Below are positions 3,240 to 60,394 of a stretch of 64,000 nt of DNA, piece by piece. Every line of letters begins with the position of its first letter. Within the stretch, counting starts at the first letter, position 1. The DNA is from Natroniella sulfidigena. Lineage in GTDB: Bacteria > Bacillota > Halanaerobiia > Halobacteroidales > Halobacteroidaceae. The notes under the pieces were generated by a model that saw only the letters and a list, made by a program, of their open reading frames with translations, was not told the origin of the DNA and made no database searches. The translations under genes and the position numbers were made by a program. The stretch is taken from NCBI RefSeq assembly GCF_023223645.1, contig NZ_JALKBY010000003.1:1-64000 (forward strand), read 5' to 3'.

Positions 3240-3967
3240 AAGTCGGCTAAAACCTCCTTTTGAAAAGAGACTTCGCCTTTCTTAGTCTCACGAAGAACCT
3301 TATGCTAAAAATGATATATCTTATAACTTAGAATATTGACTATTGGCTATCCCTAACTCTACATTACTAGAGTATTATCGGTTAATGCCAACACTATCAC
3401 TAACATTAAGGTATGTTATTAAAATCTTCCATACCACCATTTCATCAGTATTAAGACCTCCATGTTGTTAGCTTCCCTTGTTCCAAAAGACCTTACCTGT
3501 ACATATACCCTTAGATTTCTCCTTTGAGCCTGTATGTTCCACTTTGGTATGGATATACACCCTGTAAGTGTATAAGGATTTTCATAGTTTACAATCTTAC
3601 TAACCCCACATACCTCAAACTATTGTTGATATGATCATTTCTGATTATTAATATTTTAGACCCGTACTTCCAGAGATTCGTCAGTACCTTGTGGTACATA
3701 CTAATCATAGGTATTTTATAGGCGACCGAGTTATCTTAACCTTACCTATCTCTAGGTACATTTCCTCTTAGCAAAGCTAAGTTAGGGGTTAATCTCACTT
3801 GACTTCACCGAGCTTATTACATTTCATTACTTAATTAACCAAATGCAATTCGGAGTATTATCGACAGCCCTTCAAGGCGTTACCCTCTCATTTGACTATT
3901 TAGGTCTCTTAGTTCTAATTATCTTCCGATAACTAGGCTAAACTTTTAATTTAGCAACAAGTCGCAC
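3240..3967 (-). ncRNA. Ribozyme 5' domains of intron 1
   Basis: This 728-nt non-coding stretch runs from the GTGCGAC 5' end to the RT start. Several local inverted repeats are visible, as expected for domain I, but I did not model the fold. No other gene is supported here. Confidence 0.6.
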
Positions 3968-4863
3968 GTAAACATATTCCAAGCACAATCAGAAATCTGT
4001 TTCGCTAGTTTAGAATTTTTAAGCATTCCCTTTACATTCAAGTCCTCTAGAACTAAAAGTTGGTTCTCCTTCGTTAATCTAGTGGACAGTTTATGTAAAA
4101 AGTCTTTACGAATATTCTTAATTTTAGTATGAACTTTAGCAATTTTCTTTTTAAGTTTATGCCAATTATTAGAATCTTCTTCTTTACGAGCTAATCTCTT
4201 TTGAAGTTTGGCTAATTTATCTTCATATTTAGAAAGATGTCTAGGGTTTGAGATATGTTTTCCATCAGAAGTAGTTAAAAAATCCTTAATACCCAAATCT
4301 AATCCTAACTTTCCTTGATTATTGTTAACAACAGTTTTTAAAATTTGTCTAACATTAATTGAAATATAGTATTTGCCTGTTCTAGATTTAGAAACTGTAA
4401 CATTATTGATTTTGCCTTTAACTTCTTTAGATTTAGCAAACTTAACCCAAGATAATTTAGGCAATTTAATTTTGTTATCTTTAATTTCAATATTTGTACT
4501 ACCACTAGGTCTGATAAACTTTTGTGTTCTATATGATAGTCTAGCTTTCTTTTTACTTTTGAATTTAGGATAATTATATTTACCACTAAAGAAGTTTTTA
4601 AAGGCTCTATCTAGGTCTTTAAGAGATTGTTGTAAAGCTATACTATCAACTTCTTTAAGCCACTTATATTCTTTCTTTAGTTGAGGTAGTTGTCTAGAAT
4701 ATTTAGTGTATGATTGGTACTCATCTTCTTTAGCTTTTGCTAAAAATTCATTGTAAATGAATCTAGAGCAACCAATAGTCTTATCAATTAACTCCTGTTG
4801 TTCTTGATTAGGATAAATTCTAAACTTATGTGCTTTATTAATTGGTTTGAATTTCTTAATCAC
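3968..4863 (-). pseudogene. tnpB: TnpB (IS200/IS605 family), C-terminus split off by intron 1
   Basis: TnpB proteins are RNA-guided DNA nucleases of IS200/IS605 elements. Seen here are the N-terminal KFRIYPNQEQQELI, the first RuvC aspartate in GLDLGIKDF and the second-motif glutamate in LVLEDLNVKGM. The coding match stops after ISDCAWNMF, exactly where the relative at 54502-55614 continues [21 protein letters not shown]. The zinc finger and the last catalytic Asp would lie beyond the left edge. Readable sequence runs on to a stop at 3946 inside the intron. A GTG at 4863 with GAGGTG eight bases upstream is the better start than the GTG at 4872. Confidence 0.9.
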
Positions 4864-51827: not shown

Positions 51828-51898
51828 TTATCTTAATTTCTCCCACCACTCTCTATGCTCTAAATACCAACCTATCATCTATATAGCTAATCAACTTT
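51828..51898 (-). pseudogene. rfbB-like 3' fragment, copy 1
   Basis: One minus-strand frame gives WYLEHREWWEKLR and a stop, the typical end of dTDP-glucose 4,6-dehydratase. Seven bases are missing relative to the better copy at 58569, which puts the first part (LISYID) in another frame. It lies directly after the AAA gene stop. Confidence 0.5.
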
Positions 51899-53462
51899 AA
51901 ACCCAAACTGCAAATATATCTTTATCATTCTTTGTTACCTCTTCTTCTTTATATTCCTTATTCTGGTTAAAATTAAAGCTGACTAGATAACCTTGCTCTA
52001 GATTCTGCTGATCAAGATAATCTGCTAATTGTTCCAAACCCTCCTGATGATACTTCTCTCCTCGCCAAATCTTTAGTTCTACAATATATTTCTTATCTAA
52101 ATAAGTAACCACTACATCCAGCCGCTTCTCCTGAGAGATTTGAACTTCTTTAAAGTCAAAGCCTTGTCCGTTAATGATCGGTTTGATAAAAGCCAAAAAG
52201 ATAAGTCTCCCATTTCTTTCTAGAAATTCTTGATCTTTATCACTATACTGCTCTTTAATGAACAACTGGAACTTCCTTAATATCTTCCTAAAGTCTAAAT
52301 AGCCATCTGCTTTAATAAAGTTCTCTCTAAAATTATAGACTGTCATATCTAAATCTGTCTCAATCTTTGAGCTTAGATAATTATAAATAGCCTGCTCATA
52401 GATTCTATTATGAACCTTTACTCTCCCGTTATCATTCTTTAAAATTCCATATAATTCTCCCAACTCTATAAGTGGATTATGCCGATTATAACTTAGCTTC
52501 TTACCTTCCATTATTAGTTCATAGACAAGTTGATATAAGTCTTGATTATTTTCTAAATTCTTGATCAAACTTTCAAAATTAACACTCTTATCCTCTAATA
52601 TCAGCTTCACTGCTGCTTCTAAATCTTTTAAGTCCCAGCTTTTATTCTCTTTTTGAGGTAGTATCTTTTCATCTATTATCTTAGCTATTTTACTAACTAA
52701 ATAAGGATGGCCTGAAGTATAATAATGAATCTTTTTAGCTATTTTCTCTACATTTAATTTAATATTTTTATCTTTTCTATAATCCTTAAGCATTGTAGCT
52801 ATTTCTTTTGGATTAAAACTTAAATCTATATCAAAATCTACTGCTATATTCCAAGGACTATTATACTTTTTCTCATCATCTGCTCTTAACTTTACCTTAA
52901 GGTTCTTAACATCATGGACTCCTGCTAAGATTACACTATGGAAAGTATAATCTTCTCCTTCAATACTAGCAAGATATTTACTTCTTAACATTCCTAGAAA
53001 ATCCAAAAACAATTGATTATTGCTACTTTTATCTACTTCATCTATCATTAATACTATTCTTCTTTTCTCTTCTTTAGTTAATTCAGTTATTACTCTTGCT
53101 AATTTTCTCATATTTGTAGCTGTAGCTAAATTATTTTCTATAATATTAATTAGTTTTTCTTCATTTTTAAGCTCTAATTTATCTTTTAAGATTAATAAAA
53201 ATTCCTCTATAAATACCTTCTGTTCTTTATATATTTCCTTATCAAAACCTTCAAAACTAATCCTTAACACTAAATAATCTTCTTTGCTTAATTTATTAGA
53301 TAATAGATATAGTGCAGTTGTTTTTCCATATTGTCTTGGTTTATTAATAGTAAAGTAATTCCCTTTATCTACCAACTTCTTCATCTGATCTAATTTATTC
53401 TTTATATCAACCATATAATGTTTAGCTGGAATACAGGTTCCTGTTATATTAAATTCTTTCAT
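51897..53462 (-). CDS. AAA-ATPase / PD-(D/E)XK nuclease-like protein, copy 1
   Basis: A 521-residue protein of the AAA-ATPase-like (PF09820 type) plus PD-(D/E)XK (PF08011 type) family. The N-terminal ATPase has FTINKPRQYGKTTALYLL (Walker A-like, GKTT) near 33 and VLMIDEVDKSSN (Walker B) near 125. The C-terminal nuclease-like domain has RLDVVVTYLDKKYIVELKIW (D, then ExK) near 470 and LEQLADYLDQ. Members are found in many dispersed copies; their role is unknown. ATG 53462 has AAGGGGTG ahead and TATAATAAT further up. A longer reading to 53600 lacks a site. Confidence 0.85.
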   Translation of the reverse strand: MKEFNITGTCIPAKHYMVDIKNKLDQMKKLVDKGNYFTINKPRQYGKTTALYLLSNKLSKEDYLVLRISFEGFDKEIYKEQKVFIEEFLLILKDKLELKNEEKLINIIENNLATATNMRKLARVITELTKEEKRRIVLMIDEVDKSSNNQLFLDFLGMLRSKYLASIEGEDYTFHSVILAGVHDVKNLKVKLRADDEKKYNSPWNIAVDFDIDLSFNPKEIATMLKDYRKDKNIKLNVEKIAKKIHYYTSGHPYLVSKIAKIIDEKILPQKENKSWDLKDLEAAVKLILEDKSVNFESLIKNLENNQDLYQLVYELIMEGKKLSYNRHNPLIELGELYGILKNDNGRVKVHNRIYEQAIYNYLSSKIETDLDMTVYNFRENFIKADGYLDFRKILRKFQLFIKEQYSDKDQEFLERNGRLIFLAFIKPIINGQGFDFKEVQISQEKRLDVVVTYLDKKYIVELKIWRGEKYHQEGLEQLADYLDQQNLEQGYLVSFNFNQNKEYKEEEVTKNDKDIFAVWV

Positions 53463-53627
53463 TTTTTCACCCCTTTTATTATTATTATACCCTAATTTTA
53501 GGAAGGATAAAAGAGGGGAGTGGCTTTTACTCAGCCTCAACCTTAGACTTGGACTTAGTCCTTTTTTGCTTCCTTCAGACAAAATTTCTTCGAATACCAA
53601 ACCTTTAAATTCAGTAAGAACTTAAAA

Positions 53628-54363: not shown

Positions 54364-54501
54364 TTGACCCTCCTCGAGGCAAGCCACCGAGGATTCTTAG
54401 GCTGAGAGTGTAACCACTACTCATATATAGCAAGTTTAAAATTCAAAACCTGCTATGTAAACTCCTAAGCGTAATTTCCTGTTAGCCCGACAGTACATAT
54501 C
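54364..54501 (-). ncRNA. Right end / omegaRNA 3' region of tnpB
   Basis: The non-coding 138 bp after tnpB contains CTTGCTATATATGAGTAG, GTGGTTACACTCTCAGCC and the terminal hairpin ending GGAGGGTCAA. In TnpB systems this region with the tail of tnpB forms the guide RNA scaffold, and the next bases outside (here GGAGAATAAAGTACTATG, the PIN gene start) are the guide. Confidence 0.7.
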
Positions 54502-55614
54502 CTAAGTGCTATTTGCCTTTATTTTTAGTCCTTCGTTTAAAATATTCAAACTTGCGTTAATGTCCCTATCGTGTACTTCTTTACATTCGGGACATTTCCA
54601 CTTTCTAACATTTAAATTTTTAACCTTTTCATTCTTATAGCCACAGTTGCTACATAATTGACTACTTGCAAAGAAAGTATCTATTTTAACTAAATCCCTT
54701 CCATACCATTTAGCTTTATAAGTTAGTAATTCAATAAACTTGCTCCAAGATACATCTGATATTGATTTAGCTAATTTAGAGTTTTTAAGCATATTCTTTA
54801 CTTTTAAAGTTTCAACTACTATGAATTGGTTTTCTTCAATTAACTTAGTTGAAACCTTGTGTAAGAAATCTAATCTAATATTAGCTACTTTTTCATAAAC
54901 CTTACCTAATTTCTTTTTAGCTTTATACCAATTATTAGAACCTTTTTCTTTTCTAGCTAGACTTCTGTTTAATCTAGCAATCTTTCTCTCGTATTTCTTT
55001 AATACCCTAGGATTAGCTATTTTCTCACCATCTGACATAATAGCAAACTCTTTTAATCCCAAGTCTATTCCTATTTGCTTATCTACTTTAGGCAACTCTT
55101 CAACTTCTTCTTTAACTGCTATTGAGATAAAATATTTATCTGTATTAGATTTAGTTACTGTAACATTTAATATCTTACCTTTGACCTTTTTAGACTTTCT
55201 AAACTTAATCCAGCCCAATTTAGGCAATTTAATTTTGTTATCTTTTATTTCAATATTTGTATTTCCACTTTTTCTAGTAAATTTATTAGTACGATAAGAG
55301 TTTTTTCTGTTTTTCTTGGATTTAAACTTAGGAAAATCGTATTTTCCATTAAAATAGTTTTGGAATGCTCGGTCTAAGTCTTTAAGTGCATTTTGTAAAG
55401 CGAATTTATCTGGCTCTTTTAACCATTCTAGCTCTTTCTTTAGTTTAGTTAATTGCTTAGAATATTTAGTATAAGCTAAGTATTCATTTTCTTTAGCTTT
55501 ATCTAAGAAATGATTGTAAACAAATCTCGCACAACCTACTGATTTATTAATTAATATCCTTTGGTCTTTATTAGGACATAATCTAAACCTGTATGCCTTT
55601 TCTCTAACTGTCAT
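54502..55614 (-). CDS. tnpB: TnpB RNA-guided nuclease
   Basis: A 370-residue TnpB with all parts. N-terminal [20 protein letters not shown]; RuvC-I Asp in GIDLGLKEF near 195; RuvC-II Glu in [12 protein letters not shown] near 277; zinc finger CSNCG/CPEC near 325-345; RuvC-III Asp in [12 protein letters not shown] near 350. It probably cuts DNA at sites with the element's guide and TAM, which keeps the element in place after excision by TnpA in trans. No tnpA is present in this element. GTAGGAGGTG precedes the ATG. Confidence 0.95.
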
Positions 55615-55634
55615 ATTTTCACCTCCTACTTAAC

Positions 55635-55686
55635 ATTATAGCATAAACTTAAATAAGTTGCAATATTAATGTTTAAGTGTTATAAT
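55635..55686. promoter_or_regulatory. Divergent promoters sharing one palindromic -35 box
   Basis: TTGCAA at 55658-55663 is its own reverse complement. On the plus strand it lies 17 bases before TATAAT (55681-55686), driving the RHH gene. On the minus strand it lies 17 bases before TATAAT (55640-55635), driving tnpB. Confidence 0.8.
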
Positions 55687-55706
55687 TAATTTAGGAGGTG
55701 CTTATT

Positions 55707-55859
55707 ATGTCAGATTTAACCACTAGAAAGAGAATTACTACTACTTTAGATAAAGATTTAATTGATAAATTAGATAATCTTTCTAAAGAAACCAGAATAC
55801 CTAAATCTAAATTATTTGACGAGGCTATTAAAGATTTACTTGAAAAGCATAAAAAATAA
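55707..55859 (+). CDS. Small ribbon-helix-helix protein
   Basis: A 50-residue protein, RITTTLDKDLIDKLDNLS then RIPKSKLFDEAIKDLLEKH, the one-strand, two-helix pattern of CopG/Arc-type DNA-binding proteins. TTAGGAGGTG lies six bases before the ATG. It is divergent from tnpB inside the same element and shares the -35 box, so it is a likely repressor of tnpB and itself. It is too short for most gene finders. Confidence 0.85.
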   Translation: MSDLTTRKRITTTLDKDLIDKLDNLSKETRIPKSKLFDEAIKDLLEKHKK

Positions 55860-55937
55860 AGTCAAGACCGTCCACTCTTACCACAGGGCATTATCAAGGG
55901 AATACGATAAATCCGCCACAGTGGTTTGCGAGTGGAC

Positions 55938-56720
55938 TTAACTTCCATCACTATCACCAATAAGGCTTAAATCCTTCTCTATCTTTTGCTTAGGTAACAA
56001 TTCTGCTAAATCATTGTCAATAATTAATGATTTAAGATTGCTATACTTAACTTCTTTCATTCTCTTTTGCCATCTTTGTCCAATTTGATGTTTATTAATC
56101 TGATATAAAACCCCTTCTTGAGGGTTTCTGTCAGGAATAGAAAGCCACTTTTTAACCTCTTTTAGCTCTAATAACTCAACCTCATAGAGTCTTAAAATAA
56201 TCGTTTTATAAGGAACTGCAAAGGTATCCATCAGTTTAATAATCTTTAATAAATCTAGATCTTTTTCGGTTCTAACCTTTAATAATTTTAACTCTTCTAA
56301 TAAAGATAACTCAGGTACTAATATCAAAGCAGCAAATAAATTGGCTTTACTCTCTTCTAAATTAAGCTCTTTATTCTCTTCTACAACTCGCCGATGTAAT
56401 AACTCCTCTTTATCCTTATTATGTAAGTGATATAATTCATGGGCAGCAGTAAAGATCTGTTTTTCGTATGGTAAATAAGTATTAATATAAATAAAAAACT
56501 GACCTCTATGTTCACAAATAAAACCACAGAGGTCATCATCATTAATAGGAAATCTTAACAGATCAACTTCTTCTTTCTCTTCAATGATCCTAAAAATATT
56601 ATCCTTTAAGACCTTATTACTAGCCCCTGCAAATTGATCTAATAAATATACCGCTTCCTTTTTAACCTCTTGGTATAATTGGGGTTGAACTTTCTTAATA
56701 GTCTGATTTAGTAGCTCCAA
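55938..56720 (-). CDS. ImmA/IrrE-type metallopeptidase
   Basis: A 260-residue protein of the ImmA/IrrE (DUF955) family, zinc peptidases that cleave a partner repressor. The motif AAHELYHLHN (HEXXH) is near residue 90, with a downstream acidic helix ESKANLFAALILVP supplying the third ligand (Glu). The C-terminal half is helical. It lies 44 bp after the Xre gene in the same direction, the standard pairing. Its stop overlaps the original ATG of the PIN gene by 14 bp, suggesting translational coupling before the TnpB element inserted. Confidence 0.9.
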   Translation of the reverse strand: MELLNQTIKKVQPQLYQEVKKEAVYLLDQFAGASNKVLKDNIFRIIEEKEEVDLLRFPINDDDLCGFICEHRGQFFIYINTYLPYEKQIFTAAHELYHLHNKDKEELLHRRVVEENKELNLEESKANLFAALILVPELSLLEELKLLKVRTEKDLDLLKIIKLMDTFAVPYKTIILRLYEVELLELKEVKKWLSIPDRNPQEGVLYQINKHQIGQRWQKRMKEVKYSNLKSLIIDNDLAELLPKQKIEKDLSLIGDSDGS

Positions 56721-58568: not shown

Positions 58569-58648
58569 TTAGCTTAATTTCTCCCACCACTCTCTATGCT
58601 CTAAGTACCAATCTATAGTCTCCTCTACATAGCTAATCAACTTTAAAC
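58569..58648 (-). pseudogene. rfbB-like 3' fragment, copy 2
   Basis: The minus strand reads LGLKLISYVEETIDWYLEHR then EWWEKLS and a stop, the typical C-terminus of dTDP-glucose 4,6-dehydratase. It starts inside the 3' end of the AAA gene in another frame. It suggests that the AAA gene once inserted near the end of an rfbB gene and carries that tail with it. Confidence 0.55.
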
Positions 58649-60205
58649 CCAAACTGCAAATATATCTTTCCCATTCTTTGTTATCTCTTCTTCTTTGTAC
58701 TCCTTATTTTGATTAAAATTAAAACTGACTAGATAACCTTGCTCTAGACTCTGTTGGTCAAGATAATCTGCTAGTTGTTCCAAACCTTTCTGGTGATACT
58801 TCTCACCTCGCCAGATCTTCAACTCTACAACATATTTTTCATCTAAATAAGTAATCACTACATCCAGCCGCTTCTCCTGAGATATCTGAACCTCTTTAAA
58901 ATCAAATCCTTGTCCGTTGATGATCGGTTTAATAAAAGCCAAAAATATAAGTCGCCCGTTTCTTTCTAGGAACTCTTGATCCTTGTCACTATACTGCTCC
59001 TTAATGAACAACTGAAACTTCCTTAATATCTTCTTAAAATCTAGGTAGCCATCTGTTTTAATAAAGTTTTCTCTAAAGTTATAACCTTTCATATCTAAAG
59101 TTGTTTCTAACTTAGAACTCATATAATTATAGATTCTTTGCTCATAAACCCTGTTATGAACCTTTAATCTTCCGTTCTTCTTAGCAAATACCCCATATAA
59201 CTCTCCTAAATTAATAATTGGATTATCTGGATTATAACTTAAATTCTGACCTTCCATTATTAGTTCATAGACAAGTTGATATAACTCCTGATTATTCTCT
59301 AAATTCTTGATCAAGCTTTCAAAATTAACGCTACCCTTGTTTAATATTATCTTTACTGCTTCTTCTATATCTTTTAAATCCCAGCTTTTATTCTCTTTTT
59401 GAGGAAGTATCTTTTCATCTATCACCTTAGCTAATTTACTAACCAAATAAGGATGACCAGATGTATAGTAATGAATCTTTTTAGCTACCTCCATTACATC
59501 TACTTCAACTTCTCTTTCTTCTTTATATTCTTTTAACATTGTAGCTATCTCATTAGGATTAAAGCTTAAATCTACATCAAAATCTACCGCTATATTCCAA
59601 GGGCTATTATACTTTCTTTCATCATTTGGTCTTAGCTTTAATTTAAGATTCTTGACATCATGTACCCCTACTAAAATTACACTATGAAATGTCTTATCCT
59701 CTTCTCTTTGAGCCAGTAAATATTTACTTCTTAACATTCCTAAAAAATCTAAAAATAATTGATTATTACTACTTTTATCTACTTCATCTATAATCAATAC
59801 TAGTTCTTTGTTACTTGTTAATATTAAATCAGTTAGTAAATAGCCAAGTTCATCTATATTCTCTATTTCAGCATCTTCTAATACCTTTATCAAGTCAGTC
59901 TCATTTCTCAACTTTAAATTTCTTTTAATCTCTCTCAAAAAGCTTTTTATAAAACTCTCTTCGGCACTAAAGACCTTGCTACTCATACCTTCAAAACTTA
60001 TACTGATTACTAGATAATCCTTCCTTTTAGCTAATCTTTTGCTAAGTAAAAAGATTGTTGTAGTCTTTCCATACTGTCGTGGTCTATTAATCGTAAAATA
60101 CTTTCCTTTTTCTACTAGGCTCTCTATCTGATCTAATTTATTCTTTATATCAACCATGTAATGCCTCTCTGGAATACAGGTTCCTGTTACATTAAACTCT
60201 TTCAT
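58643..60205 (-). CDS. AAA-ATPase / PD-(D/E)XK nuclease-like protein, copy 2
   Basis: A 520-residue paralogue of 51897-53462 with the same motifs: FTINRPRQYGKTTTIFLLS, LVLIIDEVDKSSN, RLDVVITYLDEKYVVELKIW and LEQLADYLDQ. The N- and C-terminal thirds are almost identical. The region from about 85 to 150 differs clearly, so diversification is concentrated around the helices between Walker A and B. ATG 60205 with AAGGGGTG ahead is preferred over 60283. All key residues are kept in both copies. Confidence 0.85.
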   Translation of the reverse strand: MKEFNVTGTCIPERHYMVDIKNKLDQIESLVEKGKYFTINRPRQYGKTTTIFLLSKRLAKRKDYLVISISFEGMSSKVFSAEESFIKSFLREIKRNLKLRNETDLIKVLEDAEIENIDELGYLLTDLILTSNKELVLIIDEVDKSSNNQLFLDFLGMLRSKYLLAQREEDKTFHSVILVGVHDVKNLKLKLRPNDERKYNSPWNIAVDFDVDLSFNPNEIATMLKEYKEEREVEVDVMEVAKKIHYYTSGHPYLVSKLAKVIDEKILPQKENKSWDLKDIEEAVKIILNKGSVNFESLIKNLENNQELYQLVYELIMEGQNLSYNPDNPIINLGELYGVFAKKNGRLKVHNRVYEQRIYNYMSSKLETTLDMKGYNFRENFIKTDGYLDFKKILRKFQLFIKEQYSDKDQEFLERNGRLIFLAFIKPIINGQGFDFKEVQISQEKRLDVVITYLDEKYVVELKIWRGEKYHQKGLEQLADYLDQQSLEQGYLVSFNFNQNKEYKEEEITKNGKDIFAVWV

Positions 60206-60394
60206 TCTTTCACCCCTTTCGTTATTATTATATCCTAATTTTAGGAAGGATAAAAGAGGGAAGTGGTTTTTACTCAGCCTCAACCTTAGACTTGGACTTA
60301 GTCCTTTTTACTTCGTTCAGACAAAATTTCTTCGAATAAGAAACCTTTAAAAATAAAAAAATAGAGTAACAATAAAATACTTAGTAGCAAGATA

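Follow-up and report, generated by a model that had tools for sequence, protein, structure and literature searches.

A candidate repressor–promoter unit built on a shared palindromic −35 hexamer, beside tnpB in Natroniella sulfidigena and before other mobile-element nucleases

Results

Organization of the TnpB element

The window (the whole stretch of 64,000 nucleotides of Natroniella sulfidigena DNA analysed here) carries a solo-TnpB element in which tnpB lies divergent from a small ribbon-helix-helix (RHH) gene (Table 1). Boundaries were set by aligning 13 right ends and 14 left ends of relatives: identity starts just past GTGAT (TTGAT in copy L131) and stops at ...GGGTCAA, with unrelated flanks beyond. 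The earlier note had placed a pair of divergent promoters inside a TnpB element, and both genes do fall within these limits.

Table 1 Features of the element and its promoter region in the window
Feature	Position	Strand	Basis
Solo-TnpB element, IS1341-type, 1583 bp (left end 55946, right end 54364)	54364-55946	-	Aligned ends
GTGAT, a TAM-like target motif adjoining the left end	55947-55951	-	Conserved beside unrelated flanks
Left-end hairpin, arms GTCCACTC ... GAGTGGAC	55870-55937	-	Inverted arms read in the letters; kept in relatives' left ends
RHH gene, 50 aa	55707-55859	+	RHH_3 (PF12651); phrog_3180 'Arc-like repressor'
RHH gene Shine-Dalgarno AGGAGGT	55693-55699	+	Letters
RHH promoter −10 box, TATAAT with TG before	55681-55686	+	Letters
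Shared palindromic −35 hexamer TTGCAA	55658-55663	.	Letters; position matched in relatives
Operator-like palindrome ACTTA-AA-TAAGT = ACTTAAATAAGT, between tnpB −35 and −10	55647-55658	.	ACTTA class
tnpB promoter −10 box, TATAAT with TG before	55635-55640	-	Letters
tnpB Shine-Dalgarno AGGAGGTG	55620-55627	-	Letters
tnpB, 370 aa	54502-55614	-	Pfam and PDB matches
Right end / presumed guide-RNA 3' part, ends GAATCCTCGG...GAGGAGGGTCAA	54364-54501	-	Aligned ends

The tnpB product comprises OrfB_IS605 (PF01385, E = 1.1e-29), TNB (PF07282, 1.1e-24) and HTH (PF12323, 4.3e-15) domains and matches the solved ISDra2 TnpB (PDB 8bf8, E = 8.7e-98). The RuvC catalytic D, E and D are kept (GIDLG, VVETL and DRDINA) and align with those of solved TnpB-type nucleases. 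There is no Y1 transposase (tnpA) reading frame in 54364-55946, which makes the element IS1341-type rather than IS605 proper. It has the hallmarks of IS1341-type members of IS200/IS605—TnpB RuvC motifs with a zinc ribbon, a left-end hairpin, no tnpA, a TGAT-type motif at the left end and TCAA at the right—but differs from them in that the stretch from the left end to tnpB also houses a divergent RHH gene with a shared promoter. A search of Rfam gave no guide-RNA family match for the element. The right end, and with it the presumed guide-RNA scaffold, holds a hairpin-forming 35-bp insert (~54419-54455) that is absent from 12 aligned relatives and may affect guide-RNA function.

The 50-residue RHH gene announced in the earlier note is real, its product matching RHH_3 (E = 3.2e-17), RHH_1 (PF01402, 2.2e-6) and the Arc-like repressors of phrog_3180; similarity to CcdA is weak (E = 0.027). 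The RHH domain agrees with membership of the MetJ/Arc group. Across the five other clade copies with a sound frame (L012, L078, L088, L089 and L080), codon changes are mostly synonymous (9 synonymous and 1 non-synonymous between the window and L088) and dN/dS from the window is 0.02-0.14; the gene is under purifying selection. A PDB search for an RHH–DNA complex returned no close homologue with DNA, the best match being a distant CopG protein (E = 0.0067). Homologues are annotated in phage and plasmid records; those in named phages and plasmids are few and none stands beside a nuclease, so the named laboratory phages supply no example. Small stand-alone members of the family in the chromosomes of a 398-genome sample lie inside TnpB elements or at contig ends.

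Several other features of the window and genome were recorded. A second tnpB (3964-4839, − strand), C-terminally truncated and 62% identical, has an apparent tnpA reading-frame end upstream. An ImmA/IrrE-type peptidase gene (55938-56720, − strand), adjoined by an Xre-type gene, ends inside the left end of the element, which thus supplies its last codons and stop. Two closely similar long AAA ATPase genes (51897-53600 and 58643-60283, − strand), the first also matching a PD-(D/E)XK nuclease, flank the region and have a DUF6036 nucleotidyltransferase-like gene between them; this is possibly a defence or mobile region. Elsewhere in the same genome (C29), an IS605 copy that has a tnpA interrupts an integrase-like reading frame; a co-directional 53-aa ORF separates the left end of this copy from its tnpA (L005:2157-2318), is 96% identical in Halonatronum L052 and has no Pfam match.

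Two promoters around one −35 hexamer

The 52 bp of 55635-55686 read ATTATA-N17-TTGCAA-N17-TATAAT, exactly as the earlier note had described: a palindromic TTGCAA 17 bp from TATAAT in both directions. Both −10 boxes are perfect and carry the extended TG, and TTGCAA matches the −35 consensus TTGACA at 4/6 positions on either strand. Two or more TTGCAA-N16-18-TATAAT matches occurred in only 2/100 shuffles of the whole window. We take the region to hold two divergent promoters, probably of sigma-A type, using one palindromic −35; with a single −35 in common, RNA polymerase would bind in either orientation and not in both simultaneously. Prokaryotic bidirectional promoters have been described in which a −10 element is common to both directions (PMC12825309). 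These likewise offer one core element to RNA polymerase in two orientations, with competition possible; here, in contrast, both directions use the same −35, and the −10 boxes point outward, 40 bp apart. A shared −10 bidirectional promoter was rejected on the grounds that two separate TATAAT boxes are present and the −35 is the common element.

Conservation among relatives

Close relatives with both genes intact (TnpB 85-93% identical) carry the same RHH gene, divergent and ~84 bp from tnpB. TTGCAA is retained in the window, G007 (L103/L148), L088 and L089, and has changed to TTTCAA in Natroniella L012. The palindrome is lost in L010, where the 5' end of tnpB is deleted (TTTCAG), and in L018, where the RHH gene is deleted (TTTGAA). 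A Halanaerobium TnpB 80% identical (L008) has no RHH gene, and four further tnpB genes 85-88% identical (L086/L101, L087/L108, L138 and L139) stand beside a different RHH (~33% identical), the shared −35 being TTGAAA in L138 and L139. Other pairs have TTGCTA, TTGCAT or TTGACA in place of TTGCAA. At greater distance, L083 (TnpB 27% identical) keeps TTGCAA, flanked by TATAAT towards tnpB and by TATACT towards the RHH gene; L132, from another family of the phylum (G139), has the exact arrangement, with the RHH gene and the tnpB start read there.

The conservation proposed in the earlier note as a check on the shared box and the RHH gene therefore stands for close relatives and for the distant L083 and L132, and breaks down in L012, in L008 and where the RHHs are unrelated. 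Neither the RHH gene nor the palindromic box is strictly required, given L008 and the unrelated RHHs of L138, L139, L101 and L108. Conservation is nevertheless largely in favour of one −35 serving tnpB and the RHH gene, and it supports the suggestion that the RHH protein may control tnpB. A DNA search with one TnpB–RHH pair as query gave matches confined to the tnpB part.

Two rearranged forms were also seen. A solo RHH gene 96% identical to that of the window (L080:1501-1653, in G010) retains the left end and has lost the shared promoter, tnpB and right end; its product could act in trans on other copies. In G260, two copies (L126 and L131) share an identical internal deletion fusing RHH to tnpB, which suggests mobilisation in trans after the deletion.

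Recurrence of the arrangement before unrelated nucleases

We searched 398 genomes sampled from the phylum, and then viral contigs, for exact ATTATA-N17-TTGCAA-N17-TATAAT. The genomes gave 7 distinct sites (none for a reversed-pattern control), five adjoining an RHH gene (the window, G007, G002 and two in G139) and two adjoining ordinary genes (G344 and G004). Viral contigs gave 98 stretches. Over viral and genomic sites together, 51 of 105 records, or 35 of 82 distinct promoters, adjoin the RHH family of the window; the control pattern, centred on AACGTT, was found in 14 stretches, 0 with an RHH. The 47 distinct matches without an adjacent RHH of this family include some at contig ends and a few with other RHH families (L212, L164 and L157, all RHH_5), and the remainder look unrelated. 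An HNH nuclease is the divergent partner of the RHH_5/Arc gene that stands at the same palindromic promoter in L212:2327-3292; the layout may thus have several origins. Distances from one −10 box to the facing one peak at 40; the histogram is noisy because AT-rich DNA holds many −10 matches, and we rely on the TTGCAA counts instead.

A second sample was drawn by RHH similarity and not conditioned on the promoter, comprising 79 viral loci with 58 distinct upstream regions. In 25 of these 58, TTGCAA lies 16-18 bp from a facing −10 box on each side (dinucleotide shuffles: mean 0.1, maximum 1), the distance being mostly 17 bp on both sides and otherwise 16 or 18 bp on one. Divergent partners, defined as ORFs of ≥150 aa no more than 150 bp away and typed by Pfam and PHROGs (near-identical copies being assigned by sequence), were present at 35 loci. 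Mobile-element nucleases make up 31 of them—TnpB 12, HNH 12, LAGLIDADG 4 and GIY-YIG 3—and the other four are three unclassified ORFs and one DnaD-like protein. The shared TTGCAA is found at 20/31 nuclease-paired loci versus 5/27 others (Fisher p = 5e-4). The setting is thus broader than the earlier note had it, with an operator-like palindrome and the same unit before homing endonucleases.

At L308, the RHH gene is divergent from a 130-aa ORF that resembles, by eye, the Y1 transposase TnpA. In L321, L322 and L325 the RHH strand carries a perfect TTGACA; these promoters have a CAATTG palindrome, lack TTGCAA, and still lie beside TnpB or HNH. Type II toxin–antitoxin systems were considered and set aside: the RHH gene does not form a co-directional operon with a recognised toxin, its partner being a divergent TnpB or homing endonuclease.

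An operator-like palindrome follows the RHH class

Immediately past TTGC on the nuclease side, a 12-bp palindrome of the form [5-mer]NN[inverted 5-mer] is usual beside the shared box. Among 45 distinct cases the arms agree at 5/5 positions in 21, at ≥4/5 in 32 and at ≤3/5 in 13; the palindrome of the window is not significant taken alone, since one turns up in 24/100 shuffles of the window. The palindromes belong mainly to three classes (ACTTA, ACTAC and AGTCC), each found with three or more nuclease types. The ACTTA class accompanies 11/13 RHHs that have Arg two positions beyond an invariant Arg, versus 0/25 RHHs that lack it; the N-terminus RG-LK accompanies ACTAC, and KD-LK, DA-LK or TE-LK accompanies AGTCC. 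Palindrome class follows the predicted DNA-reading residues of the RHH, a correlation that p-values overstate because the RHH classes are clades and the independent events few. One joint exchange is visible among GIY-YIG loci: L365 and L362-L364 have nucleases 75% identical and near-same sequence from the nuclease −10 onward, and the RHH and palindrome have changed class together, ACTTA giving way to ACTAC. A palindromic operator over the regulated promoter, as in MetJ/Arc proteins, is accordingly indicated by sequence and co-variation only.

TTGCAA might itself be the core of the RHH site rather than a −35, with the true promoters elsewhere or using other hexamers. The hexamer is palindromic and joined to the operator, and some elements have no better −35 match, yet it stays constant beside all three operator classes as the palindrome varies with the RHH, and its spacing from the −10 boxes is the near-constant one given above. 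The −35 consensus is strongest in its TTG, and TTGCAA is the sole palindromic hexamer to start with those letters. We regard this reading as unlikely; TTGCAA could still have a double role as −35 and RHH site.

Divergent transcription would be incidental if the RHH protein were a partner of the nuclease at the protein level, as an antitoxin-like inhibitor or an accessory homing factor. That antitoxins contain RHH domains, that CcdA is matched, if weakly, and that the RHH and nuclease genes are always adjacent would all suit such a partnership. We find it quite unlikely, however: one RHH class pairs with the structurally unrelated TnpB, HNH, GIY-YIG and LAGLIDADG, for which a common binding surface is not expected; a 50-aa RHH leaves no room outside its DNA-binding domain; and what changes along with the RHH is a palindrome in promoter DNA.

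An RHH that activates or times tnpB transcription rather than repressing it is very unlikely. The palindrome lies in the −35/−10 spacer and overlaps the −35, and a protein bound at such a place normally blocks RNA polymerase; with their perfect extended −10 boxes, both promoters already look strong. A box arisen by chance in AT-rich DNA and spread by descent within one element family is scarcely credible: the window is AT-rich and close relatives do share descent, but the shuffles, the AACGTT control and recurrence both before unrelated nucleases and before TnpBs of 27-93% identity contradict it.

Discussion

Promoter geometry, RHH identity, divergent pairing with nucleases, the palindrome with its RHH-residue correlation and one joint exchange are all read directly from the sequences. 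We consider it highly probable that the window holds a self-contained repressor–promoter unit controlling a selfish nuclease, and that the same unit has moved before several kinds of nuclease. The RHH protein would bind the 12-bp palindrome, which overlaps the shared −35 and lies within the tnpB −35/−10 spacer, and when bound would shut off tnpB and probably its own promoter too. From these features we also infer mutual exclusion of the two promoters and a pulse on entry: in a cell without repressor both genes would most likely fire, nuclease and repressor would build up, and the repressor would then hold both down, giving a burst of TnpB on arrival and low expression from a resident element.

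Recurrence before four unrelated kinds of DNA-cutting enzymes, in bacteria and phages, makes the unit look like a portable off-switch, apparently transferred before TnpBs of several clades and before HNH, GIY-YIG and LAGLIDADG homing endonucleases. We lean, by a little, towards a stronger form of this proposal, in which a nuclease-independent cassette of RHH gene, operator and palindromic −35 moves among the four superfamilies as a common immunity-and-pulse switch. Since such a repressor would work in trans, related elements present in one cell would silence each other wherever their operators match.

 T4 I-TevI represses its own promoter (PMC2988022), and a selfish nuclease held low by a promoter-bound repressor is what we predict here; in T4 the nuclease itself is the repressor, whereas here the role would fall to a separate 50-aa RHH serving four nuclease superfamilies. 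CopG and Arc, small autoregulating RHH repressors, share with the present protein the RHH domain and a promoter-overlapping palindromic site, but here the gene is paired divergently with mobile-element nucleases and three operator classes track the N-terminal residues. In the accessible parts of the open-access literature we found no report of RHH pairing with TnpB, a homing endonuclease, HNH or GIY-YIG, and an earlier description is possible; PMC10853773 has DndE as its subject. The parts are of known kinds, and their combination as a portable selfish-nuclease switch appears new.

Sharing of the −35 sets this promoter layout apart from the −10-sharing promoters currently studied, and the three RHH/operator classes constitute compact matched repressor–operator pairs. 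Outside T4, little is established on how TnpB and homing endonucleases go on homing yet spare their hosts. A common repressor, if real, would open this to direct tests needing one small protein and a 60-bp promoter; it would explain how nuclease genes arrive with ready-made control, and would predict elements that silence one another.
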